Source: Bdellovibrio svalbardensis (GTDB lineage: Bacteria > Bdellovibrionota > Bdellovibrionia > Bdellovibrionales > Bdellovibrionaceae). Taken from it: 64,000 nucleotides of DNA. The translations under genes and the position numbers were made by a program. Shown in pieces: positions 11,098 through 41,842 of the stretch. Position 1 is the stretch's first letter. Every line of letters begins with the position of its first letter. The stretch lies in NCBI RefSeq assembly GCF_029531655.1, contig NZ_JANRMI010000002.1, positions 1 to 64,000 of the forward strand, given 5' to 3'. The notes under the pieces are model-generated. The model saw only the letters and a program-made list of their open reading frames with translations. It ran no database searches and was not told the DNA's origin.

Positions 11098-14000
11098 CTA
11101 TTGTCCCGAGTGCTGGGTTAGAGCTTTCTCGATTCTTTCAAGGCGATTTTTGAGTTCATTGATCTCTTTATCTTTCGCGGCGTTCTCTTGTTTTAGGGCT
11201 TCCAATTCGACTTTATCCGCCTTTTGAGCCTTTAGCGAGGCGATTTCACGATTCTGGGCGACGCTATCGTCGAACCACTTTTTATAAAGGTCTTTGATGG
11301 CGTTCACGACAGCCCAGTGAATGGGGTCCACATTGAGTTCTAGATAGCCGTCTTTACGAGTGCTCACGGCATCCGGAATCACTTTTTGAACTTCTTGGGC
11401 TATAAAACCTGTTTTTGAAAAGTCGGAAGGAAGACCCAGTGGATTGTCCTTCTTGTAGTTATAGCGAACTGTGTGAAGTTGCAGGACTTCGTTAAGACCG
11501 TATTCGTAATCTCCCTGAATATCCTTGAGGCGAATGTCAGAGGCGTTCGTCCATGCGGTACCAGAGCTAAGACCGGCTGTACCTACCACGTGCAGGCTGT
11601 ATGACGGAGTTGACGTTCCAATCCCGACGTTGCCACCCGAATTGGCCAAAAGGACGTTCCCGTAACTTCCAGCTCCACCGGGAGCCCCCCCATTCACGGT
11701 CGCATTACCACCATTCGCGTCTGTAGCGCCTCCAGTTCCACCGGTAATGGATACAGCGCCTCCTTGATAAGTGCCACTTCCAGTACCACCAGATACGCTG
11801 GCGCTACCGCCTGCACCAAGGGTTGCACCACCATTACCACCAAGCATCGAAACCGCACCACCTTGGCCTGAAGAAGCTCCAGTTCCACCAGTGATGGTAA
11901 CTCCTCCACCACGCGACAAAATCGGACTACCACTAATATAAGCACCAACGCCACCGGTGATGAGGACGTTGCCACCGGCCCTATTCGAGGCGGCCGCTGC
12001 AGCATTCCCGGCTGTAAGAACAATATTACCACCAGAGTTTGAAGTACCGCTGTTAGCATTCTGTCCAACCAAGGTGATGGGCGCTGCTGCACCGGAGGAC
12101 GTTCCACCTTGGACATCCAGTGGCCCTTGCGGAGAAGTCGTCCCCATGCCGACATTTCCTGAAGCATCGATGCGCATTCTTTCGGTAGCTGAAGTTGAAA
12201 AGCCGAGCATCTCCGTACCAGACGTAAAGAACATCCCACTGCCGAGGCCATTAAATTTAATATTCGGGCTTGCCGCTGAACCACTGGAAATGACTGTCCA
12301 AGAAGAAGACAAAGGAGTCCCGTTAAATTGCCAATTGCCGCTCGCAATACTATTACTTGCGCTATCAAGGGTTAAACGTGCAGTTCCCTTAGAGGTGAAG
12401 CTTAGTACACCCGCACTGTTATACATGCCAGTGTTCGTATTATTGGCAAACGAATAGGTTGGCGCTGAAACTGTTCCATCTGTTCCGGACAATGGGAAGG
12501 CTCCAGCTCCCCAGCCACCAGAAATGGTCTTACAGTTAGCGCCGGTGCGGTCACAGATCGTATCTGTGCGAATCGTACCCGAAACATCGAGGGTAGAACC
12601 AGGACTGGTTGTCCCGATACCCACATTGCCATTTCGCAAAACCATTCCTGTGCCGTAGGTGTTGTCCGCCGTGGGATATTGAAGAGCTAATATTGCACCT
12701 GGATAACCAGGGTTCGATCCTCCTGAAGTATCAAAATATGAAAGAATTCGGCCGGTAGAAAGTGAACTTGTCCCACCATAGGTTGCGGCTTTGAAGCTCA
12801 AGGCCGAACCATAAATGGACGTGGAAGGATTCGTGCCACCATTTGATAAAACCAAAGTATCATAACTTCCGGCTCCATTGGCGCCACCGACGTTAGAGTT
12901 GATGGTCGCTGTGGCAGAGGCCGGGCGTGCGGCGATATTAGCCGTCGCAACTTCAAGTGGAGTGGCTGGAGCGGTATTGCTGATACCCGTACTTCCTGCG
13001 GCAACAATAAGACCGTAGTTAGTGCTGGCGCCGCTGGCCGAGAAGTAACCACCCCAAGCTGTCGACGATCCACCTGTCAGAGCGACAACCGATTTCACTC
13101 CCACTGCAGTTGATGAAGAGCCTGAGGTGATATTCATATTAAGATTCAGGCCCACCGCATTTGAAAGGCCAGCTTGGGATCCATTGACTGCACTCAATGA
13201 TAAAATGTTGCCCGACTGAAGAGCGTTGGCAGTTAATGACTGAAGATTTCCGTTCGTCATGGATGATGATGAGATGGCCAATGCTGAACCGTTAGTTAGA
13301 GAGTTGGCCGTGATGGATTGTGCCGTTCCGTTGCCTGTATAGGTTTGAGAGATTGTTCCCGTCCCTGATGAAAGAGTTAATCCTTTGTTCGCAGCCAATG
13401 TTAAGCCAGAGCTTGAGAAGGTGGCAGCAGGAGATCCCGCAGAGCTGATGCCGACTACACCCGCACCACCTTGATAGAGACCCGTTGTCGTATCACCAGT
13501 AAAATTCAAAGATGGTGCGGCCGCAGATCCTACAGGCAATGTGACAGCTGAACCGCTGCCTGAATTTGCCCAAGACAAAGTGCCGGCACCATCTGTCATC
13601 AGGAATTGTCCATTTCCTCCATCTGTAGCGGGTAAAGTCCACACGGTGGAGCCAGCTGCTGCTGCAGGTTGAAAGCCAGTGTAACCACTGGTTGCTCCAG
13701 ACATGCGAATGGCACCCTTAACATCCAAGGCAGCCCCGGGTGAAGTGGTTCCAATTCCCACTTTTCCGGTGGATGGCACCAACCACAAGTTGTTATTTGT
13801 GTTGTCACCTTCTAGAAGTGTATGGTCGGTACTGCCGTAGTAGTTGTCGATCCAGAAGTTTCCATTGGTGCCGCGAACTCTCATCGCCGCTTTCAAAGTA
13901 CCTGCAGCGGGAGCTGCGCCAACGGCACCCAAATGCAAGTTGTAACCACCGCCATTGGCGGCATTGCTTGTATAGAACAAGTTGGTTCCTTCAGAGTAAG

Positions 14001-17000
14001 GCGTGTTCGAAGAGTAGAATATAGAGTCGCCACGCACATCGAAAAATTTCTGCGGGCTCGCAGTGCCGACGCCCACGTTTCCTGACGTATCGATTGTCAT
14101 TCGCGTGGAGTTATTTGTTTTAAAGCCCAAAGTGTTTGAATCATTTGTTCCAAGAGTGGCGGCGGCCCCGAAGGAGTTACCACCATTCATATAAAGACCT
14201 GTGGCTCCCGTAGTCGGCAGGTCTGTGCTGGCAATAGTACGATAAGTTGGCGCACCCGCAGCCCCGGTTGGCGCCGCCAGGAAAGTTTTGGCGGCCTGGG
14301 AGCCATAAGTGATTTGTGAATCAGCAATGGCGATATTTGAACAAGTTAAGTTGTCGCCGACAGAGTTGTAAGTCAAAGTTTGACTGGCGGTGCATGCACT
14401 GGCCAAAGCCGTCGTGCCTGTGATTGTCGAGCGAAGATCCAACATTGAAATAAAATTAGGAGTCCAATTTGTTCCATCATAGCGCAGAACTTGTCCTGCG
14501 ATGGTTGGCGCGGCACTGACAGTTTTGCCTTTGATGCCCCCAACGGTGAAGACTCCAGCGTTCGTGGTGGAAAGGTCTCCTGATGGTGTTACTGCCGTGG
14601 CAGTTCCTGTTTGACCAACCCAAATTTTCCCATCAGCCAATGATGGCGTCGAGGGAGTGGACCAAGCCAGAGTTCCCGAGGTGTCAGAAGCAGTAAGAAC
14701 TTGGCCCGCGACAGAAGCGACGTTCGCGGGGAGTTTTAACACATAGCTTGTTCCAATACTTGTTGGGGCTTGGATTGTGACTGTATTTGCGCCGGTATCT
14801 TTAAAGATCGCGCTCGTACTTAAAGTCACAGCACCCGCCGCAAAGTTTCCGGAGCCATCGCGCTTCACAATCGTGCTGGCTGTATTTGCACTTGCGGAGT
14901 TCAAAGTCAAAACAGGTGTGCTTGTGCCACTTGCCACACCGATGTCAGAGTTTGCAGAAGACACATTCGTAACCGTCCCGCCGGAGCCGGTGGACGAAGC
15001 AATATTCACCCAGGCACTAGAGTTGTATTGATAGATCGTTTTTGAATCCGTCGCAAAGTAGATAGTTCCAGCAGAAGGGGAAGCTGGTTTACTTGCATCT
15101 AAACCTGTTTGAATTCCAGGAGTTCCACCCAGGTTGCTGACCAAGGAATCCGTAATGCCATAGCCAGTCAGAGTTGTCGGATTTGCACCCGAAGTCACGC
15201 GACCTTTAGCATCTACAGTCACAGATTTATAAGTGCCCGCGGTCACACCTGAAAAGGCCAGAGTCAAAGCCCCTGCATTTGAAAGAATCGCATCACCACT
15301 CATAGTGACGGGTGCAGCAGTGTTGGTGGCATCACCAACGAAGAACTGACCAGAGTTTAATGCAGATGTTGCCGGATTATAACCCAAAGCCGTCGTCACT
15401 TGTGAGCTGGTTAAAGAGTAAGCCTGACAACTTAAGGTATCAGTCGCAGAAGTGTATGTCAGAGTCTGCCCAGAAGGACATCCACCAGAAGCGGTGAAAA
15501 AGGATCCAGCGACCGTCGATTGAATATCAGAAATATTTAAAGTTCTAAAGGTCGGTGTGCCGCCCGCAGCGGGAGCAGCAAGAACCGTTGAAGCCGATTG
15601 GGTGGCAAGTGTGGCCGTCAAAGTGCCAGTGTTTGTTACGGGAGAATTCGTCACTGAGAAAATGCTAGGAAGTGAAAGCCCCACACTGGACACTGTACCA
15701 CCAGAGCCTGTGGACGAAGCAATGTTCACCCAAGAACCGGCATTGTACTGATAAATGGTTTTTGTATCTGTTGCAAAATAAATAGTTCCCGCTACTGGAG
15801 AAGCCGGTTTGGTGGCATCTGTTCCAGTTTTAATACCAGGAGTTCCCCCCAAGTTGCTAACCAAAGAATCTGTGATGCCATAACCAGCAAGAGTCGTCGG
15901 AGTCCCTGAGGTAATGGCGCTCCACGGAAGAGCAATGGCTGTATTTCCGGCAGCAGTCAACTGACCTTGAGCATTCACCGTGAATGTTGGCACCTGAGTC
16001 GCAGAGCCATAAGATCCTGCAGCAACAGCAGTGTCAGCGACAGCAATCGTACCTGTTCCAGTGATCGTGCCGCCGCTTAAGCCTGTACCCGTGGCGACTG
16101 ACGTGACCGTGCCACCACTTCCACCTGCAGAGCTGATAAGATCCCAAGAGGCTCCGTTATAGCGATAAATTTTTTGTGAATCTGTCGCCACGAACAAGTC
16201 CCCGGAAGCGGGAGTACCAGGCTTTACAGCATCAAGACCCGCAGAGATATTGCCAACGCCACCCGCATTTTTCACGGCATCAGTAATCCCATAACCTGCC
16301 AGAGTTGTCGGATTTGCACCCGAAGTCACGCGACCTTTAGCATCCACAGTCACAGATTTATAAGTGCCTGCGGTCACACCTGACGAGGCCAGAGTCAAAG
16401 CGCCTGCATTTGAGAGTATCGCATCACCATTCATGGTAACTGGTGCTGCAGTGTTGGTGGCATCGCCGACGAAGATCTGACCAGAGTTGAGTGCAGATGT
16501 TGCTGGGCTATACCCCAAAGCGGCCGTCACTTGTGAATTGGTCAAAGAGTAAGCCTGGCAACTTAAAGTGTCATTCGCAGAAGTATAAGTCAGAGTCTGC
16601 CCAGAGGGACATCCACCAGAAGCCGTGAAGAAGTCCCCAGAAACCTTCGATTTGATATCAGAAATATTTAAAGTTCTAAATATGGGAGTCCCACCCGCAG
16701 CTGGCGCTGCAAGAACTGTTGAAGCTGACTGTGTTGCGAGTGTGGCGGTCAGAGTGCCAGTGTTTGTCACAGGAGAATTCGTCACTGAGAAAATGCTAGG
16801 AAGTGAAAGCCCCACACTGGAGACCGTCCCGCCAGAACCTGTCGATGAAGCGATATTCACCCATGCACTGGAGTTATATTGATAGATCGTTTTTGAGTCT
16901 GTCGCAAAGTAGATAGTTCCCGTAGAAGGGGAGGCCGGTTTGCTCGCGTCTAAACCTGTTTGAATTCCCGGAGTTCCCCCCAGGTTGCTGACCAAAGAAT

Positions 17001-18216
17001 CGGTGATTCCGTATCCACTCAAGGTGGTGGGTTTTCCGGTGGTAATTTTATTCCAGTCCAGGTTTGGAATATCAGCAGCAAGAAGAGAAGTTGCACCAGA
17101 AGTGACACGACCCTTCGAGTCCGTTGTTACCTTATAGTAAGTGCCCGCAGTTCCAGTTGCACTTAAGGTTAAAATGCTCGAGCCCGCAGCAGAATTCACA
17201 TCACCAGAAAAGGCGGGAAGATTTGTTGCGGAAATAGTTCCTGTGAGATCACTCGCTTGCAGAGGTGAATTCACAAATGCGGTTCCATTATAGCGGAAGT
17301 AGTCTGCCGTTTGTGGAGAGGTCAGCGTCACCGTGCTGCCTTGGATTTTAGCGATGCTTGCAGCTGCGGAACCAGGCCCTGTAGCGGTCACGTCCCCAGT
17401 CAGCGTAGTGATATAATTTCCTGTGGCCTGTTTGTTGTTAAAGGCATTCCAGTCCGCAGCGGATAGATATCCATCTGTGGTGGAAGTGGCTTTTGCGATA
17501 GAGATCGTCGGAGTGGTCGTTCCATTAATAACAGAGAGTGGGGCGCTGCCCGTAAGACTTGTTACAGAACCTGCTCCCGCAGGGCTGCAGGTCAAAGCAG
17601 TTCCATTCCAAGTGAGGAAAGTTCCCGCGGCGCAAGTAGGGAGCCCGGCCTTGAGAAGAAAATCAGAAGCGGTATTTGTTCCCAATTTGTCCGCCGCGTG
17701 AGCGTATGCCGCAAAAGGAACAGATCGAATCGCAGTGTCTGGAGAAATAGTTTTCCAACCTACGCCATCATAGAATTGAACTCTAAGCAGACGTCCATCA
17801 GACATGACTGGAGTGTAAGTCGAAGAACTCACGGAGCAAGTATAGCCGCTGCAATTTCCACAGCTTTGAACGACAGAATTATTAAAAGCATCCAAAATTG
17901 TATAGCTTCCACTTAAAGGGAAACTGATGGTTCCTTTTCCGATGGGTACATCAAAAATTCCATTGGAGTTAACCATGTTGTAGCCGCTGACTTGTTCCTG
18001 GTAAATAACGCAAGAACCAGTAGGATCTGTGACTTGAAAAATAAAGCCGACTGCACTGTATTCCAGAGGGTTGCCATCGCTTTTAACAATTCGACCTTGA
18101 TAAGTTAATGCAGCCGGTGCCGCCAATAAATTCAGTGGTGCAACGACTAGCATCACTGCTAGCAGCGAGCGGGGAATCAACAATTTTAATTTTGAAAAGC
18201 ATACCAGATTATTCAA
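11098..18216 (-). CDS. Giant secreted fibre protein with endosialidase-type intramolecular chaperone (S74)
   Basis: 2372 residues. Signal peptide (about 1-33, ending LLAAPA), an N-terminal domain (34-180, LTYQGRIVKSDG) shared with the fibre protein at 37286, then a long low-complexity beta-fibre of Thr/Ser/Gly/Ala repeats, including four GYGITD modules and the recurring VGIGTTSPG motif. A Gly-rich GGx stretch lies near 2050-2200. The C-terminus is a peptidase S74 chaperone beginning at SDIRLK (Ser2226, Lys2231, the autocleavage dyad) and a coiled coil. S74 domains trimerise fibres and then cut themselves off. Bdellovibrio is known to use chimeric trimeric fibres of this type in prey recognition; this one's target is unknown. 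Start is TTG after GAGGAG. Confidence 0.85.
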   Translation of the reverse strand: MNNLVCFSKLKLLIPRSLLAVMLVVAPLNLLAAPAALTYQGRIVKSDGNPLEYSAVGFIFQVTDPTGSCVIYQEQVSGYNMVNSNGIFDVPIGKGTISFPLSGSYTILDAFNNSVVQSCGNCSGYTCSVSSSTYTPVMSDGRLLRVQFYDGVGWKTISPDTAIRSVPFAAYAHAADKLGTNTASDFLLKAGLPTCAAGTFLTWNGTALTCSPAGAGSVTSLTGSAPLSVINGTTTPTISIAKATSTTDGYLSAADWNAFNNKQATGNYITTLTGDVTATGPGSAAASIAKIQGSTVTLTSPQTADYFRYNGTAFVNSPLQASDLTGTISATNLPAFSGDVNSAAGSSILTLSATGTAGTYYKVTTDSKGRVTSGATSLLAADIPNLDWNKITTGKPTTLSGYGITDSLVSNLGGTPGIQTGLDASKPASPSTGTIYFATDSKTIYQYNSSAWVNIASSTGSGGTVSSVGLSLPSIFSVTNSPVTNTGTLTATLATQSASTVLAAPAAGGTPIFRTLNISDIKSKVSGDFFTASGGCPSGQTLTYTSANDTLSCQAYSLTNSQVTAALGYSPATSALNSGQIFVGDATNTAAPVTMNGDAILSNAGALTLASSGVTAGTYKSVTVDAKGRVTSGANPTTLAGYGITDAVKNAGGVGNISAGLDAVKPGTPASGDLFVATDSQKIYRYNGASWDLISSAGGSGGTVTSVATGTGLSGGTITGTGTIAVADTAVAAGSYGSATQVPTFTVNAQGQLTAAGNTAIALPWSAITSGTPTTLAGYGITDSLVSNLGGTPGIKTGTDATKPASPVAGTIYFATDTKTIYQYNAGSWVNIASSTGSGGTVSSVGLSLPSIFSVTNSPVTNTGTLTATLATQSASTVLAAPAAGGTPTFRTLNISDIQSTVAGSFFTASGGCPSGQTLTYTSATDTLSCQAYSLTSSQVTTALGYNPATSALNSGQFFVGDATNTAAPVTMSGDAILSNAGALTLAFSGVTAGTYKSVTVDAKGRVTSGANPTTLTGYGITDSLVSNLGGTPGIQTGLDASKPASPSAGTIYFATDSKTIYQYNSSAWVNIASSTGSGGTVTNVSSANSDIGVASGTSTPVLTLNSASANTASTIVKRDGSGNFAAGAVTLSTSAIFKDTGANTVTIQAPTSIGTSYVLKLPANVASVAGQVLTASDTSGTLAWSTPSTPSLADGKIWVGQTGTATAVTPSGDLSTTNAGVFTVGGIKGKTVSAAPTIAGQVLRYDGTNWTPNFISMLDLRSTITGTTALASACTASQTLTYNSVGDNLTCSNIAIADSQITYGSQAAKTFLAAPTGAAGAPTYRTIASTDLPTTGATGLYMNGGNSFGAAATLGTNDSNTLGFKTNNSTRMTIDTSGNVGVGTASPQKFFDVRGDSIFYSSNTPYSEGTNLFYTSNAANGGGYNLHLGAVGAAPAAGTLKAAMRVRGTNGNFWIDNYYGSTDHTLLEGDNTNNNLWLVPSTGKVGIGTTSPGAALDVKGAIRMSGATSGYTGFQPAAAAGSTVWTLPATDGGNGQFLMTDGAGTLSWANSGSGSAVTLPVGSAAAPSLNFTGDTTTGLYQGGAGVVGISSAGSPAATFSSSGLTLAANKGLTLSSGTGTISQTYTGNGTAQSITANSLTNGSALAISSSSMTNGNLQSLTANALQSGNILSLSAVNGSQAGLSNAVGLNLNMNITSGSSSTAVGVKSVVALTGGSSTAWGGYFSASGASTNYGLIVAAGSTGISNTAPATPLEVATANIAARPASATATINSNVGGANGAGSYDTLVLSNGGTNPSTSIYGSALSFKAATYGGTSSLSTGRILSYFDTSGGSNPGYPGAILALQYPTADNTYGTGMVLRNGNVGIGTTSPGSTLDVSGTIRTDTICDRTGANCKTISGGWGAGAFPLSGTDGTVSAPTYSFANNTNTGMYNSAGVLSFTSKGTARLTLDSASNSIASGNWQFNGTPLSSSWTVISSGSAASPNIKFNGLGSGMFFTSGTEMLGFSTSATERMRIDASGNVGMGTTSPQGPLDVQGGTSSGAAAPITLVGQNANSGTSNSGGNIVLTAGNAAAAASNRAGGNVLITGGVGAYISGSPILSRGGGVTITGGTGASSGQGGAVSMLGGNGGATLGAGGSASVSGGTGSGTYQGGAVSITGGTGGATDANGGNATVNGGAPGGAGSYGNVLLANSGGNVGIGTSTPSYSLHVVGTAGLSSGTAWTNASDIRLKDIQGDYEYGLNEVLQLHTVRYNYKKDNPLGLPSDFSKTGFIAQEVQKVIPDAVSTRKDGYLELNVDPIHWAVVNAIKDLYKKWFDDSVAQNREIASLKAQKADKVELEALKQENAAKDKEINELKNRLERIEKALTQHSGQ
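14950..17050. repeat. Long internal direct repeats in the large fibre gene
   Basis: Two near-identical blocks about 1130 bp apart (roughly 15150-15910 and 16280-17040) and a partial third (about 14950-15180) encode the module from GYGITD through IYQYN, SSTGSGGTV and SLPSIFSV to VTVDAKGRV. As an example, 50 bases at 15641-15690 recur exactly at 16772-16821. They mark recent duplication and could recombine. Confidence 0.85.
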
Positions 18217-18469: not shown

Positions 18470-19432
18470 ATGTTCCCACCCATTGAGCCATTTAGAACTG
18501 GTTACCTGGCAACAACAGATGGAAATGAAATCTACTGGGAGGCCTCAGGCAATCCAAAAGGTTTGCCTGCTATCTATATACACGGCGGCCCCGGTGGAGG
18601 AATTATGACGGGATATCGTCGACATTTCGATCCCGAAAAGTTTTGTATCGTCTCGTTTGAACAAAGAGGATGCGGTCGAAGCAGACCTCTGGCTACCAGT
18701 AGCCTGGAAGATCTTAAAACGAATACCACTCAGAGTCTCATTTCAGATATCGAGTTACTAAGAACGCACCTGAATGTGGATCAGTGGCTTCTTTATGGTG
18801 TCTCTTGGGGAACAACTCTGGCGCTTGCCTATGCCCAAGCCCATCCTGACAGAGTTATGGGATTGATCTTGGCGTTAATTTGCACGACCACACATCAAGA
18901 GGTCGAATGGATTACAGAAGATATGCGACGTATCTTTCCTATCGAGTGGGAGCGGTTTGCTGCGATGGCAGAACCAGAGCCGGGCGAACGAATCATTGAT
19001 GCCTATTATCGAAAGATCACAAGCCCTGATCTGACAATGCGAGAAGCGGCAGCTAAAGCCTGGTGCGAATGGGAGGACACTCACGTGTCTCTTGATCCTC
19101 GTCATACCCCTTTTAGTAAATTCCAAGATCCAGATTTTTGTATGTTATTTGCAACTCTGGTAATTCACTATTGGAAGAATGGGGCCTTCCTTGGTGACCA
19201 GCAGATTCTAAGGAATCTTAAAACCATTCAGCATCTTCCCTGCGTGTTGATTCACGGTAAACTTGATGTGAGTTCCCCGTTAGAAATTGCTTGGCGCCTT
19301 CATAAGGCTTGGCCGGGCAGTGAGCTGGTCATTCTTCAAAATGAGGGTCACGGAGGGAGCGGTATGGTTGAAGCGGTGACAAAGGCTGTAGCGAAAATGG
19401 AGAGTGAACTTGTGGGAAAGATGTCGATATGA
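18470..19432 (+). CDS. pip: Proline iminopeptidase
   Basis: 320-residue alpha/beta hydrolase that removes N-terminal proline from peptides in the cytoplasm. The oxyanion motif HGGPGGG (about 38-44), nucleophile elbow GVSWGT (Ser near 109), acid Asp in HGKLDVSSP and His in NEGHGGSG are all present and spaced as in the S33 family; length is typical (about 315). The start follows CGGAGGATAAGAAG. It is monocistronic with a terminator just downstream. In a predator, recycling of prey peptides is a reasonable role. Confidence 0.93.
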   Translation: MFPPIEPFRTGYLATTDGNEIYWEASGNPKGLPAIYIHGGPGGGIMTGYRRHFDPEKFCIVSFEQRGCGRSRPLATSSLEDLKTNTTQSLISDIELLRTHLNVDQWLLYGVSWGTTLALAYAQAHPDRVMGLILALICTTTHQEVEWITEDMRRIFPIEWERFAAMAEPEPGERIIDAYYRKITSPDLTMREAAAKAWCEWEDTHVSLDPRHTPFSKFQDPDFCMLFATLVIHYWKNGAFLGDQQILRNLKTIQHLPCVLIHGKLDVSSPLEIAWRLHKAWPGSELVILQNEGHGGSGMVEAVTKAVAKMESELVGKMSI

Positions 19433-19500: not shown

Positions 19501-19686
19501 CTTGCTTAGTCGAGTATCCGTGAGCAATTTCAACAGCGTCTTTAATTTTTAATGACTGATTGAAATACACATGAGTGAAATCAGATTCTTTCAAACAGGA
19601 CCTTTGTCTGATGTATTTATTATCTTCTTAAAATATAAACAAACAAAACTTAATATGTCAGATCAATTTTAGTGGGATGGTATTTG

Positions 19687-21876
19687 ATGGGTAAGTTAGT
19701 TGAAAATTTAGTGCACCATGTGGAACTTTGGAAATCAGAGTGGGATCTTACTGCAATTACACAGTTTATCGAGTTTTCGATGTTCAACGAAAATGAGTTA
19801 ATTTCCCTTGAGTCTTTAACAGCAATTATAAATAGTTCTTTGGGGCTAAAAATAGATAATTTGAAAGTCGAAAGATGTCTGCAAAATTTAATCAGTAAGC
19901 AGGCAATTTTTAAAGTAGGGGATCTCTACAAGCTCTCTGAGCAACGAAAGTCAGAAATTTTAATTCTTCAGCAAGAAAGGACAAATTTAGATGCGATAGC
20001 GGCGGAAGAATTTCAAGATTATCTCATTAGATATTCGTTGTCTGGAGTGAATGAGGTAACGTGGGAGAGATATTCAAAAGAGTTTATTCCAAAATTGGTC
20101 GAGCTTTACGGTTCAGAAGTTTTTGATTTACTCAGGAATAAAGTTAACCATAGTAGAACTCTTCCGGTTGACTTAATAAGGGATTGTTTTCCAATTTGCC
20201 ATTCAGAAGTCGTATCAATTTCTCATGAAATTTTTGTTCACCGCGAGTCAAATATTTCTAAGCTAATTTTAAATCATTTAAATGTATATTATATTACGGC
20301 CGCATTAGGTCTGGATAGTTCTGCTCAACGTTTACTTAAACGCTCTTCATCCGGCAAATACATATTCCGAATTCTTTTGGACTCAAATGCTTTGTTGTCG
20401 ATATTTTCTCTACATAAAAGTTTGTACGACGATGCCATTTTGAGAATTTTTTCTTTTCGAGAATCACTCAAGGGTAATATTGATCTCCACTTCTATGTTA
20501 TGGATCAAACTCTCGAAGAGACGACAAATGTTCTGATTGCCGCAAATCGCGCCTTGGAGCAAAACCCATTAGACGGCATCACTCAAAAAGTGTTTGTGAG
20601 ACAAAACCTACATGGCGTTCGGGCCAAGTTTTATGAAGCAACTTTAAACAAGCCGATTCCTCCAAAAAAATATTTTGAACCATATACTGAAAATTTTCCA
20701 ATGTTACTTCGAGAGAAAGACATTCAAGTTCTTAAGAGCGAAGACTTTCGACAAAGTAATTTGGCCGAAGTTCAAGCTTTAACAGGCGAAGCGTATGAAT
20801 TTCAAAAGAAACTGAAAGAAGATAAACAGCGGGAATATAAAAGTCTCGAGCACGATAGTATGTTAGTTTTATTTTGCAAAAAGCGTCGTTCAGATTCTAT
20901 TAATTCATTGGCAAAATCTGAGTACTGGGTCTTGTCACAGGACTTTTCCTTGCTAATTCCATTTGATAAAAAAGTATCCAAAGGTAGCCCATTGCAAAGG
21001 CATGTTTTAGAACCTCTTGTTTTTTTAGAGTTGTTGAGTTTTTGGTCGATTGATACAGATGTAGCTCGTAAGATGTCGTTAGAAAATTTGAACTTCTTCC
21101 TTTCTTTAAATAAATTTGATTCTAATGCAGAAAAAGTCTCAATTTCGATTTTGGAAGGTCTAGCTGCCTATAAAGATCATGATCAACTAACTGAGAGCCA
21201 AGTTGAGAAAATATTGGAAGACCAAGCGTTAAGGGTTCGAATTAATTCGTTAACGCCCGAAGAAAAGAAAAATTTTATTCGGGAGGCGGCTCTTGGAATA
21301 TTTAAGAATGATTTGCAGCGTGCTATGGATGAATCCGCAACATTAGAATCCTATGTAGTTAAAAAAAATGAGCAGCTTAGGAGTGCTGAAAGCGATCTAC
21401 TTCTGATGCGAGAGGGGCTCAGCCAAAAAAACGATGAGTTAATCGGAGCGCAAGGTGAGCTTGAAGCAATAAAAGCAAATGTTCAGGAGTTAGAAAAGTT
21501 TAAGATTCTAGAATTTGAAAACCGAATTTGGAAGTATATTTTCTTCCCTCTCACTGTGTGTGCGTTGATTGCATTATTCGGGACTTATGGGCTGTCAGTT
21601 TCACTAAATGTTACTTTTTTTGATTTGGTTCTAATTTATACTTCAATGTTAATTTTAATTATTAAAGGAATGAAACTGTTATTAAAAAAATATTTTGCAG
21701 AGGGTGAGATTAATAGATCTCGAACTGTGAAAATATTTTTTGATAATTCATTAGTCGATAAAGCAAGCTGGGGTTTGGTGGCATTTATCTTTGTAGTTTT
21801 GTTCAAAACAAAATGCGAAGGATTGGTTCAAAAGATTTTCTCTTCCATTCATTTATTTGAAATCGGTAATAGTTAA
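19687..21876 (+). CDS. Large membrane protein with PIN-like nuclease domain, unknown function
   Basis: 729 residues from the ATG at 19687 (a GTG at 19672 would add five). Residues 1-95 look like a winged-helix region. A PIN-like fold follows from about 215: LLDSNALLSIF (first Asp), TLEETTNVL (Glu), EHDSMLVLFCKKRR (Asp) and YWVLSQDFSL (Asp) give the four-acid pattern of PIN RNases. A coiled coil (about 535-600) leads to two or three membrane helices (about 610-710). The gene is visibly AT-rich beside its neighbours and lies in an island next to tRNA-Gln. A membrane-anchored RNase could serve in abortive-infection style defence; that is inference. Confidence 0.6.
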   Translation: MGKLVENLVHHVELWKSEWDLTAITQFIEFSMFNENELISLESLTAIINSSLGLKIDNLKVERCLQNLISKQAIFKVGDLYKLSEQRKSEILILQQERTNLDAIAAEEFQDYLIRYSLSGVNEVTWERYSKEFIPKLVELYGSEVFDLLRNKVNHSRTLPVDLIRDCFPICHSEVVSISHEIFVHRESNISKLILNHLNVYYITAALGLDSSAQRLLKRSSSGKYIFRILLDSNALLSIFSLHKSLYDDAILRIFSFRESLKGNIDLHFYVMDQTLEETTNVLIAANRALEQNPLDGITQKVFVRQNLHGVRAKFYEATLNKPIPPKKYFEPYTENFPMLLREKDIQVLKSEDFRQSNLAEVQALTGEAYEFQKKLKEDKQREYKSLEHDSMLVLFCKKRRSDSINSLAKSEYWVLSQDFSLLIPFDKKVSKGSPLQRHVLEPLVFLELLSFWSIDTDVARKMSLENLNFFLSLNKFDSNAEKVSISILEGLAAYKDHDQLTESQVEKILEDQALRVRINSLTPEEKKNFIREAALGIFKNDLQRAMDESATLESYVVKKNEQLRSAESDLLLMREGLSQKNDELIGAQGELEAIKANVQELEKFKILEFENRIWKYIFFPLTVCALIALFGTYGLSVSLNVTFFDLVLIYTSMLILIIKGMKLLLKKYFAEGEINRSRTVKIFFDNSLVDKASWGLVAFIFVVLFKTKCEGLVQKIFSSIHLFEIGNS

Positions 21877-21978
21877 ATTTGCGGAGCACGATTTTTTGAA
21901 GTGGTCGATAAAAACGTATGAGCCGAACCTAGTAGTTATTGGGTCGATAACTACACCCAATCACTACAGAAATGCAAA

Positions 21979-21998
21979 AACCCGCGGGAGCGGATTTT
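21979..21998 (+). terminator. Short hairpin after the PIN-like gene
   Basis: CCGC-GGGA-GCGG flanked by AAAA and TTTT (core 21982-21993), with the tRNA 3'-end repeat immediately after it. Weak but terminator-like. Confidence 0.35.
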
Positions 21999-22011
21999 AA
22001 ATGGATGGGGT
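21999..22011. repeat. 13-bp duplicate of the tRNA-Gln 3' end, possible attachment site
   Basis: The 13 bases AAATGGATGGGGT are identical to 24162-24174, which cover the CCA end, discriminator and six acceptor-stem bases of the tRNA-Gln gene. Both copies follow a terminator-like hairpin. It could be the trace of integration at the tRNA. Confidence 0.4.
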
Positions 22012-22037
22012 TATGTTTTCAGGCTTAAACCATTGAA

Positions 22038-22274
22038 ATGACTGAACACGAATTGCAAAAGTACCACAAAGTACGAAACAATTCGATCATGCTGTGGGAT
22101 CAAAGTCAGACAATAATTGGAAGGGTCGAGGTTCATCTTAAGCCGATCAACAAGGTACTCTTTGAGCCCCATGTGAGTGCTTGTTTTGTGAGTCAGCTGG
22201 TAGGTTCTCAACGATATTCGGCTTTAATAGGCCTGGATCAAATGATTCAAGCTCGCATCAAGGCTAATGAATAG
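22038..22274 (+). CDS. Small hypothetical protein
   Basis: 78 residues (MTEHELQKYHKV ... DQMIQARIKANE). I recognise no family. It ends 30 bp before the SH3 gene on the same strand and has ordinary amino-acid composition, but lacks a clear ribosome site. It might be a real small partner or the 3' remnant of a longer gene interrupted next to the tRNA-like repeat at 21999. Confidence 0.35.
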   Translation: MTEHELQKYHKVRNNSIMLWDQSQTIIGRVEVHLKPINKVLFEPHVSACFVSQLVGSQRYSALIGLDQMIQARIKANE

Positions 22275-22304
22275 CAAAATTTTGCAATAAAGAAGGTTGG
22301 TCCG

Positions 22305-23918
22305 ATGATCTATGAAGTCGTCGAAACTTACGAAGTCGTCTATACATCTCCAATTAGATTAAAGGTTGGAGAGGATGTAACAATCACCGAAAGAGAAACA
22401 AATCCGGAATGGCTGGGGTGGGTTTTCTGTTTGGATGCGAATGGGACAAGTGGATGGGTGTCTGAGAAGTATCTCCAAATTAATGGAAACTTCGGACAGG
22501 TTATAAAGAATTACGACGCGACTGAGTTGGGAGTTGAAAAGGGTGAATCAGTCAGTTTGATTAACGAAGAGTTTGGTTGGGCTTGGGTAAAAAATAGCGC
22601 CGGAAATGAAGGTTGGGTGCCTCTTAAAAATCTTCGCGCTGTAAGTGAACAGACGAAAACATCAAAGCGATCTCGATTTTCGGATAAATCCTTAGATGTG
22701 CTTGTTACGATGATTTTTCAGGGCATAAAGGATGTGTCTACTCATATCAAAATGGATGAGGTCGGATATATTCGAATAGCTGCTACCGCTCACAGTAGTG
22801 TTAAAGATTTCTTCTTGTATGGTTGTACTGATGAGGTCATGAAGGTTGCAACGGCCGCACTCCGCTGGAGCGAACTGTTATCTGAATCAAAAGAAGATCT
22901 AATTCAGCAGGATGTGACGGAGCGAGTGAGTCGCGTCGTTTTGGAAGCAATTCATGATGAAATGCAAATGTGGAACAGGAAGCTGACCGAGATTTTGGTG
23001 GATCAGATTCTTTTTAAGACAACTAACGATCAAGAGTACTATAAGCTCTATTTTTATTGTTCATCACTTGAGACTCTTCGCCGCGTGCAAAAAGATTTTA
23101 AGGAATTTTACGGCTTCGAAAGCGGGAACGTTCAGCACCAAATTGATTATGACATTTCGGCTATAAAAAGTATTTTATCCAATATAGATATAAAGCGCGC
23201 CTGGTTTCTTGATAAAGGTTTTGATCCAAAAAAATTTGATACTAACTCTAAGCGAATTTTAAAAAGTGCAAACGCTAGAATCAAAGAGGCATTTGCCCTA
23301 GCTACCCCGCAACAAAAATTGGCCTTAGGAATTAGCTATGAACGCGGGTACTCCGCTCCCAGCAGAGCGATCCACGCATCAATTGGTCAATTTTTTGGTG
23401 AAGTTAGTTCTGAAAAAGCAAAAGCGCTCTTCGGCAAAAATATTGTTACTGCCCGGCATGTGATCTTAGGTTGTCATAATCTATTGGAAACTCAGCCCAA
23501 AGGATTGATGGGCATGATGGAGAAATCCGAGGAGCGTGACGAAGCAGGTGATAAAGTCGTAAAGGCTTTGTCGGCTGACTATCAACTTGGCGATATTGTT
23601 TCTGCCTACGGTGAGATATGTTTGGTCACGGACAAGAGAGTGAGTGCCTTTGGTTACACTTCCTACGAAGTAGAGTTTTTATTTAAGCCAATGCTTCCTA
23701 ATCTTTTGAAAGATTATTTTCCTGCACAATACATTCAGATGATCGCTCCTAGAGCGAAACTGATTCCGACTATACAAAAAATTTTTAGTGATATGGGATT
23801 GGATCCAGGAAAAGTGACTGATGATTTGGTTTCTCAGGCAATTAAACAGATGTGTAAGGATCTCGGTGAAGAGCTGTTCCTCAAGTCATTTCGTCTTAAA
23901 AGAGTCATTCGCAAATGA
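22305..23918 (+). CDS. Tandem SH3-domain protein, unknown function
   Basis: 537 residues, no signal peptide, so probably cytoplasmic. Two SH3-like repeats occupy about 1-60 and 62-110; each ends in a GW motif (GTSGWVSEKYLQI and GNEGWVPLKNLRA). A long helical region follows (about 120-430), including RAIHASIGQFFGEVS, which loosely recalls HEPN/DUF5677-like proteins, and another small beta region near 440-480 (YQLGDIVSAYGEICLVTD). No catalytic motif is certain. ATG at 22305 with AGAAGG upstream. It closes the AT-rich island and may work with the PIN-like membrane protein. Confidence 0.6.
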   Translation: MIYEVVETYEVVYTSPIRLKVGEDVTITERETNPEWLGWVFCLDANGTSGWVSEKYLQINGNFGQVIKNYDATELGVEKGESVSLINEEFGWAWVKNSAGNEGWVPLKNLRAVSEQTKTSKRSRFSDKSLDVLVTMIFQGIKDVSTHIKMDEVGYIRIAATAHSSVKDFFLYGCTDEVMKVATAALRWSELLSESKEDLIQQDVTERVSRVVLEAIHDEMQMWNRKLTEILVDQILFKTTNDQEYYKLYFYCSSLETLRRVQKDFKEFYGFESGNVQHQIDYDISAIKSILSNIDIKRAWFLDKGFDPKKFDTNSKRILKSANARIKEAFALATPQQKLALGISYERGYSAPSRAIHASIGQFFGEVSSEKAKALFGKNIVTARHVILGCHNLLETQPKGLMGMMEKSEERDEAGDKVVKALSADYQLGDIVSAYGEICLVTDKRVSAFGYTSYEVEFLFKPMLPNLLKDYFPAQYIQMIAPRAKLIPTIQKIFSDMGLDPGKVTDDLVSQAIKQMCKDLGEELFLKSFRLKRVIRK

Positions 23919-24164: not shown

Positions 24165-24240
24165 TGGATGGGGTGGCAGGACTCGAACCTGCGAATGACA
24201 GAATCAAAATCTGTTGACTTACCAACTTGTCGACACCCCA
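24165..24240 (-). tRNA. tRNA-Gln (anticodon TTG)
   Basis: Cloverleaf on the minus strand: acceptor TGGGGTG / CACCCCA, anticodon stem ACAGA / TCTGT around loop TTTTGAT (anticodon TTG), T arm GCAGG TTCGAGT CCTGC, and an encoded CCA. The acceptor and overall length match bacterial tRNA-Gln. The discriminator base reads T, where E. coli has G. Its 3' end faces the island at 19.6-24 kb. Confidence 0.95.
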
Positions 24241-24376: not shown

Positions 24377-24829
24377 CTAAGGAGGCGAAAACAAGCCATC
24401 GAACACCTTCTGGTCCCACCTAAAAGGTAAACAAGCTGCTGCATGACTGGCCACCGGGGAGGCCTCGAGCTTGCCTTTGACTGAACGAATCGCTTGGATT
24501 TGAGTGTCGCAGTCGTTGCTGGGGGCTGGCAGTTTGATGGAGTGCTCTACCAAAAATGCAGGATTTTTTCCTGTTTGGTGCACGCGCAGTTTGCCGTTAG
24601 GTTCGCGGTGGAACTGGCAAGGGGCTTTGATCTTTAAATTGATATCCAACTTATCATTGGCCACCACCACGCACAGGCCATCGCGATTGTGCAGGCTCAG
24701 CTTGTAACCAGAGAACTCGGCCTCGGTAGGAATAACCGCGCCAGCGTGAGCTTCTGAAGTCAAAAGCATTAATGCCGCAAGCGCAGTTGAAATGGCTAAA
24801 GCGGGCAGTCTGAGCAAAGTTGAATTCAT
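24377..24829 (-). CDS. Small secreted protein of unknown function
   Basis: 150 residues with a clear signal peptide (about 1-29, cut near EAHA/GA). The mature part has four or five Cys (LCVV, PCQF, DCDTQ, ACLPF) that could form disulphides, consistent with a periplasmic or extracellular location. I know no family for it. A ribosome site AAAGGACGACGTC precedes the ATG. The tRNA gene lies downstream on the same strand. Confidence 0.7.
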   Translation of the reverse strand: MNSTLLRLPALAISTALAALMLLTSEAHAGAVIPTEAEFSGYKLSLHNRDGLCVVVANDKLDINLKIKAPCQFHREPNGKLRVHQTGKNPAFLVEHSIKLPAPSNDCDTQIQAIRSVKGKLEASPVASHAAACLPFRWDQKVFDGLFSPP

Positions 24830-25057: not shown

Positions 25058-25387
25058 TCAGTAGTCGTCATTTCCACCATAATCACTGCCTGGAGCTTTC
25101 TGGCGTTTCAAACTAACAAGAGTTTCACCCATGGATTTCAATTCTTTTTCATAAGCCTCAAAAACAAGGTCCTCGATCATCGCTCGAGTTTCTTGGTTCA
25201 GAGGATGCGCAATATCTCTAAACTGACCGTCTTTGCGCTTCTTGCTGGGCATCGCCACAAACAAGCCGCTGGTGCCTTGAATAACCTTAAGGTCGCGCAC
25301 CACGAAACAATTATCGAGTGTGATCGACACATAAGCTTTCAGTCGGTCTTCATTCACCGGGAAAACTTTTACTTCGGTGACTTTCAT
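25058..25387 (-). CDS. spoVG: SpoVG-family DNA/RNA-binding regulator
   Basis: 109 residues. The conserved SpoVG core is intact: [55 protein letters not shown] and LNQETR. SpoVG proteins bind nucleic acid and tune developmental or virulence genes in Firmicutes, Borrelia and others; it is also common in Bdellovibrio-like bacteria. I start it at the ATG at 25387 after AGAAAGGGA; an upstream ATG at 25423 has no site. The C-terminus is charged and extended ([11 protein letters not shown]). A perfect inverted repeat 160 bp upstream may control it. Confidence 0.93.
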
Positions 25388-25545
25388 AGAGTCCCTTTCT
25401 AGTTGCCATTCTTGTTGCATCACTGTTGCGTCTAACTTCGAACCAAACTATGGTCTGTATTTCTTCTCGGAAGTGAGTGGAAAAACTAAAGACCTAGGTC
25501 GAGGATTTTTTCACGATGTAATCGATCTCTGAAAATCACAGCAAT

Positions 25546-37285: not shown

Positions 37286-40200
37286 ATGAAATCCTTCGCC
37301 ACCTGTACGTTACTGGCACTTTTAGTGATATTCACGGCGTGGTCCGCTCATGCGGCTCCTAACTCACTCACGTATCAGGGACGCATTCTCAAGGCCGATG
37401 GCTCTGCATTAGAATTCAATAGCGTCAGTTTTAGTTTCGAAGTCACCAGCCCCGATGGTCTGTGTGTGATCTATCGTGAGCAAATCAATGGCATCAATAT
37501 GACCAACTCCGGTGGGGTGTTCGATGTGGCCATTGGGAGTGGGACGAAGTCTTTCCCCGCGGCACCTACATTTAAGCTTTTGGACTCTTTCGTAAACTCC
37601 GGATCTGTTTCTTGCGATGGCGGAGCGACTTATTCGCCAGCTTTCGATGATATTCGTAAGTTGCGTGTGCAATTTCATGATGGCACAGGTTGGAAAGTGA
37701 TTTCACCAGATTCAGAAATTCGTTCGGTTCCTTTTGCGGGTCATGCACTTACAGCATCGAAATTGGGAAGTTATAGTTCTTCGGCATTTGTCTTAAAAAC
37801 GGGAATTCCAACTTGTACTACGGGGACTTTTCTTTCTTGGAACGGCAGTGTCTTAACTTGCGAAGCCGTGGCAGGTGCCAGTGGCGGTACAGTCACCAGT
37901 GTGACTTCAACGAATCCATATTTAACTGTTGTAACCGGGACTTCAACTCCTGCCTTAACTTTAAATGTGGGAACGACGGCGAACACCGTCGCAGCGGGTG
38001 ACGATGCTCGTCTGTCTGACTCTCGTACACCTACTGGCAGTGCCGGTGGAGATCTTAGTAATACCTATCCCAATCCGAAGGTGGCAAAAATTCAAGGGGT
38101 TGCGGTAGCCACAACTCTTCCTAATAGCGGAGAGTTTTTTAAATACAACGGATCGCAGTGGGTGCCGTCAGGAATTACCACTTCCGATGTCGCCGGTTTG
38201 ACGGCCTCGTTGAGCAGTTATTTGACGCAATCATATTTCAATACGGCCATCGCCAGCGCAGCTTGTACTGCCAACCAAACAATGTACTGGAATTCCGCAA
38301 CAGGAAATTTCCTGTGTCAAAATATCAACGTCGGAGTTGCCGGTGATGTCAGTGGATCGATCGGCGCGGTGAGTGTTAATAAGCTTAAAGGTGTTGGAAT
38401 TGATTTTTCAGTGGCGCCAACAAATGGTCAGGTTTTGAGATTTAACGGAACCAATTGGGTTCCAGGTGCGGATAACAACTCAGGCGGCACAGTGACTGGT
38501 GTTACCTCTGCGAATAGTGACATCACTGTCGCGGGGACCACAGCTCCTGTTTTGACTTTGAATTCAGGGGTGACTGGTGGCGCTGGTGATGCGAACAAAA
38601 TTGCCAAATTGGATGCCAGTGGTTTGATTCCATCTGCTATGTTGCCCAATCATGATGTCAGTAAATTGACGTCAGGGGTTTTGCCGATTGCACGTGGTGG
38701 AACAAACTCATCGACGGCCTTGGTCGGCAATCGCGTCATGGCGTCGTCAGGAACGGCGATCGTTGAGGCCGCAGCAATCACTGCAAATCGGGCTCTTATA
38801 TCTAATGCGAGTGGCATTCCGACTCATTCTGCAGTCACGGACACTGAGCTTGGCTATCTGTCCGGTGTAACATCTTCCGTGCAAACTCAGATCAATTCAA
38901 AAGTTTCGGGATCAGGATGGACAAACTACAGTGTGATGGGTGTTGATGGCTCGGGAGCCCTGACTGCGATTCCTGGCTCTGTTGCTGGCTCATTTTTGAC
39001 ATGGACTGCGGCAGGGCCGGTTTGGACGGCGGCAACGGTAGATACATTTAGTCAGTACGCTTTACTTGCCGGTCGCGCGGGTGGACAGGTCTTAAATGGT
39101 TCCACGGCAGCTTCAGGAAATTTGACTTTGGATTCAACTGCGAATGCCACTAAGGGATATGTTTTGCTTGCTCCAACCGGCGGGAATGTTGGGATTGGAA
39201 CAAGCGCCCCGGTTGCAAATTTGGAAGTTAAAAAAGCAAGTGGCTGGCCCAACTTCCGCCTCGCCAGCGGTGATGCTGGAGTTACGATTGAGTTGAACTC
39301 AGTGGGTGCGACGGCGAGTGACGGTATGATCCAGTATGGAAGTACCAAAGCTTTGAGTTTTTATACAGATTATCAGTCTAGTGCTTCACCTGATTTAACA
39401 ATTTTAGCTGCTGGTAATGTGGGTGTGGGAACGAACAGTCCCGCAGCGAAGTTTGATGTGAATGGTGATTTTGTTTTGCGCGGAATGGCAGCTCCGGCAG
39501 TCTCTGTGGCGGGGCAAGGTAGAATCTATTATGATTCTGGTGCCAACAAATTCAAAGTTTCTCAGAATGCCGGGGCTTATGTTGATCTTGTCGGCGGCGG
39601 CGGTGCTGGGACAGTGACAAGCGTGACATCAGCCAATGCGGATATCAGCGTGGCAACGGGAACTTCAACGCCAGTGCTGACATTGAATACAGGCACAGGC
39701 CCGAGTCAAATCGTCAAGCTCGATGCTTCTTCACGCTTACCCGCAGTGGATGGCTCTCAATTAACAGGTCTGACTGCAACGCAAATTCCTAATTTAGATG
39801 CCGCGAAGATCACGACGGGAACTTTACCCGTCGCTCGCGGAGGTACGGGACTCACAACGGGGACCAGTGGTGGCATTCCATATTTTAGTGCTGCAACAAC
39901 AATGACTTCATCAGGAGTTTTAGCTGCGAATGGTGTTGTTCTCGGCGGCGGCGCGGGTGCTGCACCTACTACAACAACCGCAGGTACTGCAGATCAAGTT
40001 CTGCGAATTCCAGGTGCCGGTGGTGCACCAGCTTTTGGCGCCATTGATCTTACTAAAGCAGCGGCGGTCACTGGCGTTTTGCCAATAGCAAACGGTGGAA
40101 CAGGCGTGTCTTCTTTGGCGGCAAATCGGTTGGTTGGAACTAACGGAACGGGAACGGCTCAGCAGGCAGTGACTTGTACTTTGAATCAAATATTAAGTTT

Positions 40201-41842
40201 CGATGCTTCCGGAAACTATGGCTGTTACAACGTGAGTTCAATTTATGCAGGGTTTACAAATGGCGGAAATAGTTTCGGAGCCACTTCAAATCTTGGTAAC
40301 AATGACAACTTTGATTTGAATATCAAAACAAATAATTTAACTCGCATGACAGTGCAAGCTGGTGGAAAAGTAGGGATCGGCACAACGAGCCCCGGCAGTT
40401 TGTTGACTGTCAATGGGGCGGCTTTGTTAGGAAAGGCCAGCACAAACTATACGGGGACTTCGGCTGGGGCTATTCTTGGAAATGGGACGTCGAATCCCAC
40501 CTTAATCTTTGATGCCAGCTCAACCAGTATAGCGAATCTTAATTGGAACAATGGTATCTTAACGTTCGGCAAGTGCGGCGTTGTTGATTGCTCAAGTTTA
40601 TCTCCTTATTTTTCTATTGATACAGGAACAAACATAGCTAACTTCAGCAATACAAATTCTTTGCGAGCGGGAAATGGATACGGGTCCGCCGCAACACCGA
40701 CGTTTAGTTTCGGAACAACAACCACAGTTGGAATGTTTAATCCGGCGGCGAATGTTTTAAGTTTCGCAACGAGTTCGAGCGAGAGAGTCAGAATTGATGC
40801 TTCCGGAAACGTCGGAATTGGTTTAACAAGTCCTGTTGAAAAGTTGCATATAGTGGGTAATGAAACAGCGGCTGGAATGAATCGGGCCGCCATTCGGCTG
40901 GAGGATACTGGTATTGGTGCGTCTTGGAATTTGGTGCTCAACGGGACGGCTTCAGCTGACGGCAGTAATAAGTTTTCAATCAATCAGACTGGAATGGGCT
41001 CAAGATTTGTCATTGATTCTTCCGGTGACGTAGGCATAGGTACGACGTCGCCAAATGATAAACTTCAGGTGATTGGTGCCGCAACATTTTACGCGGACGT
41101 CGTTGGAGGGGTTGGCCGTGTTCTTTCAATAGGAAATGATTTGAATGTCCATGACATTGGAGTAGCAAACACGATTGGACTGCGGGGGGCTGCCGCTGCG
41201 GGTGAAGCCGGTTTGCAGTTTGGATCTGGTGGAGCGACTGTTTATGGAAAGTCTGGGAATATCGGTATCGGAACAACCACACCGGCGGTGCCACTTGATG
41301 TGGTGGGCGCTGGGGGGACACCTATGCGTTTAAAGAATACCACCTCCGGCGGCGCTTTTTGGCAGATGGGACCAGATAGCGTTAATAATTTTGTGATCTA
41401 TAATTCTGTTGGGACAGGAATGTATATTACCAATGGTGCCACAACTTGGACTGCCAATTCAGATCGCCGCATTAAGCGAAATATTGAGTTGATCCCTAAT
41501 TCGCTAAACAAATTGAGCGAAATTAACGGTGTTACTTATTGGTATAAAACGGACCCGAAAAATGAATCACGTCGAGTAGGCGTGATCGCGCAAGACGTTC
41601 AAAAAGTTCTGCCTGAAGCTGTTAGTGAGAAAAACGGAATACTTGGGGTTCGATATCCTGAACTTATTCCTTTGGTGATCAATGCGATTAAAGAGTTTTA
41701 TGCTGAATTTAAAGCTCAATCTTCTGAGCAAAGTCGCAAAATCGCTTCCTTGGAAGAAGAGAATCTTCGTTTGAAAGTAGAGATTCAGGAAACCAAGAAA
41801 GCAGTTTGTGAATTGAATCCGAAAGCTAAAATTTGCAATTAG
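37286..41842 (+). CDS. Secreted fibre protein with S74 chaperone domain, paralogue of the 11-18 kb fibre
   Basis: 1518 residues. Signal peptide (1-24, ending SAHA), an N-terminal domain (NSLTYQGRILKADGSALEFN) shared with the giant fibre, a long Thr/Ser/Gly beta-fibre with VGIGTTSP repeats, and a C-terminal S74 chaperone from SDRRIK (Ser1392, Lys1397) plus a coiled coil. S74 drives trimerisation and self-cleavage. Its middle differs from the 2372-residue fibre, as expected if the two bind different surfaces. There is no normal ribosome site before the ATG, which sits at the predicted start of a sigma28-type transcript. Confidence 0.85.
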   Translation: MKSFATCTLLALLVIFTAWSAHAAPNSLTYQGRILKADGSALEFNSVSFSFEVTSPDGLCVIYREQINGINMTNSGGVFDVAIGSGTKSFPAAPTFKLLDSFVNSGSVSCDGGATYSPAFDDIRKLRVQFHDGTGWKVISPDSEIRSVPFAGHALTASKLGSYSSSAFVLKTGIPTCTTGTFLSWNGSVLTCEAVAGASGGTVTSVTSTNPYLTVVTGTSTPALTLNVGTTANTVAAGDDARLSDSRTPTGSAGGDLSNTYPNPKVAKIQGVAVATTLPNSGEFFKYNGSQWVPSGITTSDVAGLTASLSSYLTQSYFNTAIASAACTANQTMYWNSATGNFLCQNINVGVAGDVSGSIGAVSVNKLKGVGIDFSVAPTNGQVLRFNGTNWVPGADNNSGGTVTGVTSANSDITVAGTTAPVLTLNSGVTGGAGDANKIAKLDASGLIPSAMLPNHDVSKLTSGVLPIARGGTNSSTALVGNRVMASSGTAIVEAAAITANRALISNASGIPTHSAVTDTELGYLSGVTSSVQTQINSKVSGSGWTNYSVMGVDGSGALTAIPGSVAGSFLTWTAAGPVWTAATVDTFSQYALLAGRAGGQVLNGSTAASGNLTLDSTANATKGYVLLAPTGGNVGIGTSAPVANLEVKKASGWPNFRLASGDAGVTIELNSVGATASDGMIQYGSTKALSFYTDYQSSASPDLTILAAGNVGVGTNSPAAKFDVNGDFVLRGMAAPAVSVAGQGRIYYDSGANKFKVSQNAGAYVDLVGGGGAGTVTSVTSANADISVATGTSTPVLTLNTGTGPSQIVKLDASSRLPAVDGSQLTGLTATQIPNLDAAKITTGTLPVARGGTGLTTGTSGGIPYFSAATTMTSSGVLAANGVVLGGGAGAAPTTTTAGTADQVLRIPGAGGAPAFGAIDLTKAAAVTGVLPIANGGTGVSSLAANRLVGTNGTGTAQQAVTCTLNQILSFDASGNYGCYNVSSIYAGFTNGGNSFGATSNLGNNDNFDLNIKTNNLTRMTVQAGGKVGIGTTSPGSLLTVNGAALLGKASTNYTGTSAGAILGNGTSNPTLIFDASSTSIANLNWNNGILTFGKCGVVDCSSLSPYFSIDTGTNIANFSNTNSLRAGNGYGSAATPTFSFGTTTTVGMFNPAANVLSFATSSSERVRIDASGNVGIGLTSPVEKLHIVGNETAAGMNRAAIRLEDTGIGASWNLVLNGTASADGSNKFSINQTGMGSRFVIDSSGDVGIGTTSPNDKLQVIGAATFYADVVGGVGRVLSIGNDLNVHDIGVANTIGLRGAAAAGEAGLQFGSGGATVYGKSGNIGIGTTTPAVPLDVVGAGGTPMRLKNTTSGGAFWQMGPDSVNNFVIYNSVGTGMYITNGATTWTANSDRRIKRNIELIPNSLNKLSEINGVTYWYKTDPKNESRRVGVIAQDVQKVLPEAVSEKNGILGVRYPELIPLVINAIKEFYAEFKAQSSEQSRKIASLEEENLRLKVEIQETKKAVCELNPKAKICN

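Follow-up and report, generated by a model that had tools for sequence, protein, structure and literature searches.

An AT-rich island at a variable tRNA-Gln site in Bdellovibrio svalbardensis encoding a predicted membrane-bound PIN-like protein and a tandem-SH3 protein

Results

Gene content and base composition of the island

The window (the whole stretch of 64,000 nt analysed here) contains an island at positions 19687-23918 with two large codirectional ORFs, termed P1 and P2. According to the ORF listing P1 (729 aa) extends from 19687 to 21876 on the plus strand, with an alternative upstream GTG start at 19672, and P2 (537 aa) follows at 22305-23918 on the same strand. The 428-base gap between them holds an unassigned 78-aa ORF (22038-22274, plus strand), which lies directly upstream of P2, shows coding-like GC by codon position and has no counterpart in any other genome of the class; it was absent from the initial annotation. 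The GC content of the island is 38.1%, compared to 45.7% for the window, and the lowest value of any other equal-length, non-overlapping stretch of the window is 42.0%, still above the island. The GC content at the third codon position is 0.32 in P1 and 0.39 in P2, while it ranges from 0.43 to 0.56 in the neighbouring genes. Promoter and terminator counts are at the shuffle level. The left neighbour is an ordinary alpha/beta hydrolase gene (18470-19432, plus strand) whose closest homologues are found elsewhere in relatives. On the right side 246 bases separate the island from the 3' end of a tRNA-Gln (TTG) gene (24165-24240, minus strand), which is oriented with this end towards the island and forms the conserved border of a variable site. 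The initial annotation had described an AT-rich island beside a tRNA, and this is borne out by the base composition and the position of the tRNA-Gln; both of the proteins that it described are also present, with the acidic residues and hydrophobic stretches of P1 and the SH3 pair of P2.

PIN-like motifs and predicted membrane helices in P1

P1 consists of an N-terminal region of about 200 aa without assignment, a PIN-like segment (approximately residues 227-440), a helical/coiled-coil stretch (approximately 490-610) and membrane helices between residues 618 and 706, corresponding to three hydrophobic stretches (approximately 618-636, 641-659 and 688-706). Four acidic residues occur in PIN-like order, D232 (FRILLDSNALL), E278 (DQTLEET), D390 (LEHDSMLVLFC) and D419 (WVLSQDFSLL), and all of them sit in the expected hydrophobic strand contexts. 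When a four-motif PIN expression was run on 219 ORFs, only P1 and a single genuine PIN_12 protein were matched, and 5 out of 20,000 shuffles of P1 met it; these numbers flatter the rarity of P1 since the expression was composed after P1 had been inspected. No PIN profile from Pfam, NCBIfam or PADLOC matches P1, and in hhalign comparison with small PIN profiles the score is within that of the shuffles; against VapC-like profiles the first motif is aligned in register. A PADLOC hit to PDC-M02B (E 0.04) was taken as chance. The single-sequence AlphaFold model of P1 (mean pLDDT 39.6) gives no significant fold match and is too poor to superpose; the strand-helix order in this weak model agrees at the first and last motifs. 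The PIN-like character of P1 proposed in the initial annotation thus stands for the pattern and order of the motifs and gains nothing from profile searches. From its sequence, the most likely function predicted for P1 is that of a PIN-type RNase tethered to the membrane.

No sequence relative of P1 was detected in 369 genomes of the phylum, in plasmids, phages and viral contigs, or in a pattern scan of genome contigs, the viral-contig and genome-contig scans being sensitive to close relatives only. Matches within the phylum are local and weak (E 0.008 or worse), and none of the other genomes of the class contains P1. The claim of rarity holds for the phylum, since genomes outside it were scanned with short peptide patterns only. 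One plasmid match (H25, E 6), a hypothetical protein adjoining an MvaI-type restriction enzyme, was dropped.

P2 as a fusion of two modules

P2 starts with two SH3 domains (approximately residues 5-59 and 67-112), recognized as two stretches by Pfam SH3_2 (E 5e-13, 49 bits against a curated cut-off of 21.8). The remaining part of approximately 420 aa, called the body, is helical by weak prediction and carries the conserved motif QQKLALGxSYxxGYSxPSRxIHxS. The AlphaFold model of P2 (mean pLDDT about 39) is too poor for use, and PADLOC gave no meaningful match for either P1 or P2. The SH3 pair also exists on its own, as a protein of about 112 aa encoded in two further genomes of the class (45-48% identity to P2 in L008 and 41-43% in L009) and on plasmids (approximately 33%), including an apparent gene-cassette array in Vibrio. 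The only full-length match to the body is a 427-aa protein of another genome of the genus (G006), which lacks SH3 domains and is 33% identical over 403 aa. Since the SH3 pair and the body each occur apart elsewhere, P2 is a fusion of two modules. Its most likely role is that of a cytosolic sensor or adaptor. Weak matches to the body in two other genomes (G197 and G053, E 0.005) are to unrelated ORFs or short frames and were rejected.

A DSR1-like neighbourhood for the relative of the P2 body

In G006 (L007:1128-6358) the relative of the P2 body is the third gene of a unit encoding proteins of 238 aa, 961 aa, 427 aa and 124 aa, the last with one membrane helix. The 427-aa gene begins 71 bases after the 961-aa gene, whose product aligns to positions 305-1174 of the 1227 positions of PADLOC Dsr1 (E 1.8e-49), with the SIR2 part missing. 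The first two genes of this unit recur in a second genome (G011, L075:5834-11686; 92% and 81% identical), where the sensor gene is likewise without SIR2; in both genomes the protein encoded before it is an unassigned one of 230-238 aa. The third gene of G011 differs and encodes a 558-aa protein that has three membrane helices at its N-terminus; a gene for a 219-aa protein comes next. This difference in the third gene suggests that the P2-type gene occupies an exchangeable place beside a DSR1-like sensor, although the P2 body was seen in this position in one genome only (G006). The two loci may represent a form of DSR1 in which the effector has been replaced. At other loci of the phylum, a SIR2 protein is encoded either apart from the DSR1 sensor region (L076 and L078) or in one piece with it (L077, 1017 bits).

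At the locus of the fused form (G217, L077:6187-11488), a full-length DSR1 of 1231 aa overlaps the start of a gene for a 541-aa protein. With its three N-terminal membrane helices this protein is laid out like the one that follows the DSR1-like gene in G011, but the two have no detectable sequence similarity. A homology of the P2 body to the soluble part of these membrane proteins in G011 and G217 was considered and rejected, as the scores were not above those of shuffles. A search of the window's own genome gave no homologue of the DSR1-like protein, and neither P1 nor P2 contains SIR2 or the DSR1 sensor region.

Variable cargo at the tRNA-Gln site in relatives

The tRNA-Gln and a conserved gene at 25058-25423 stay together in relatives, while the 3' flank of the tRNA, which is the island side, has unrelated cargo in each of the nine relatives examined. 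The flank genes of these relatives and the window have nothing in common except for weak similarity to large fibre-like proteins. Defence or mobility genes are located at this flank in four of the nine: an OLD nuclease (G009, PADLOC 2.7e-87), a HEPN_AbiV protein (G005, 3.1e-8), an AbiEii-type enzyme (G013, 6.9e-7), and a serine recombinase (G017, 2.2e-32) accompanied by a TraD-like protein. Some relatives have ordinary genes at this tRNA-Gln. A search of the window for a direct-repeat attachment site found none. The variability of the flank, together with the defence or mobility genes of four of the nine relatives, supports an integration hotspot in which defence cargo is frequent.

The ORF of the large serine recombinase in G017 (L028:8280-10085) ends inside the tRNA-Gln with the TraD-like protein close by, and the two probably belong to an integrative conjugative element at this site. 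On the far side of the tRNA, the window encodes a probably secreted protein of 150 aa (24377-24829, minus strand) that was not found in the other genomes of the genus; the corresponding gap is likewise enlarged in one relative (G016). The window also contains two giant repetitive fibre-like proteins (11098-18216, minus strand, 2372 aa; 37286-41842, plus strand, 1518 aa). Their C-termini resemble the self-cleaving S74 chaperone that tail fibres carry, as in surface fibres of predatory bacteria.

Discussion

The best reading of the island is a horizontally acquired, defence-type cargo, because the tRNA-Gln site holds unrelated cargo, including defence genes, in relatives. The initial annotation had suggested a transferred defence or conflict system, and the variable flank, the defence and mobility genes and the DSR1-like locus with the relative of the P2 body all agree with this idea. 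The fuller reading, in which the island is acquired cargo at a tRNA-Gln hotspot, P1 is a membrane-tethered PIN-type RNase and P2 is a sensor or adaptor, is a tentative one to which we give close to an even chance.

The same annotation had also taken P1 and P2 as a set, and here the genome comparison went the other way: the gene pair was not seen linked in other genomes, P1 being without a relative and the relative of P2 being without P1. P1 and P2 may have arrived independently at one hotspot and may act alone, the partners of each being lost or located elsewhere, with P2 as a detached accessory of a DSR1-like system; we regard this as a real possibility that falls well short of being probable. 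It would account for the 428-base gap containing another ORF, the unlike GC of the two genes, and the relative of P2 that adjoins a DSR1-like gene with no P1 nearby, and it also fits with the lack of a detectable DSR1-like gene in the window's genome. On the other hand, the two genes are codirectional, both AT-rich and restricted to one short island, and adjacent, codirectional defence genes frequently make one system. It seems unlikely that P1 is no nuclease but a scaffold in the membrane built of helical domains, its acidic residues being coincidental, and that the island is accessory DNA of an ordinary AT-rich kind. The missing profile match and the hhalign score no better than shuffles speak for this reading, yet the four motifs lie in proper hydrophobic contexts, the only other ORF matched is a true PIN_12 protein, and the weak model places strands and helices in agreement at two of the motifs. 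Still more improbable is a toxin-antitoxin-like pair serving island maintenance, in which the PIN toxin P1 would be neutralised by P2 or the 78-aa ORF. The motif order of P1, the nearby small ORF and the mobile site speak for such a pair; P1, however, is much larger than VapC-type toxins and predicted to be membrane-bound, the order and spacing of toxin and small ORF would be unusual, and the relative of P2 is found without a PIN gene.

Since neither profiles nor the structure model confirmed a PIN fold and no second genome with both P1 and P2 was found, we put forward the two-gene defence system as a hypothesis, inferring joint action only from the adjacency of the genes. In the favoured reading of the two proteins a cytosolic nuclease segment of P1 would be joined via the helical/coiled-coil stretch to the three C-terminal membrane helices and kept inactive. 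Upon infection P1 might be released or clustered, and the active enzyme would cut RNA and abort phage growth. The tandem SH3 module of P2 might bind a protein ligand, and its helical body belongs to a family that elsewhere adjoins a DSR1-type phage sensor. It is rather doubtful, though worth stating, that the two proteins make up an anti-phage system not described so far, a membrane-tethered PIN RNase under tandem-SH3 control, and that the P2 body is an exchangeable part that also serves SIR2-less DSR1-type systems. If the main reading holds, phage defence would gain a membrane-bound RNase effector with an SH3-bearing partner, and the P2-body family would be tied to DSR1-like systems seemingly rid of the SIR2 NADase; such swaps would reveal how the exchange of sensors and effectors proceeds. 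The tRNA-Gln hotspot is a place to seek more defence genes in predatory-bacterium-like genomes.

Several known systems can be compared with the island. The OLD nuclease, AbiV and AbiEii of relatives use the same tRNA-Gln site and are defence-type cargo, but they belong to protein families other than P1 and P2. DSR1 is connected to the island through the relative of the P2 body, which follows a gene homologous to the 305-1174 region; the island itself differs in having no SIR2 and no DSR1 sensor, and P2 has no detected homology to DSR1. The stand-alone tandem SH3 proteins share the SH3 pair with P2, which has it fused to the helical body of about 420 aa. PIN RNases (PIN_12/PF16289 and VapC-type) have the order and context of the four acidic residues in common with P1, whereas P1 has no profile match and adds three membrane helices and an N-terminal domain. 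Among the systems of DefensePredictor, DS-3 and DS-5 are PIN defence systems, and DS-5 consists of a PIN protein and another essential protein that do not form a toxin-antitoxin pair (PMC13092281). This second protein carries DUF5830 and an AcrIF4-like domain (PMC13092281) and is of another kind than the tandem-SH3 protein P2, as judged by the described domains and not by sequences. DS-5 thus provides a precedent for the logic of a PIN protein acting with a non-antitoxin partner.
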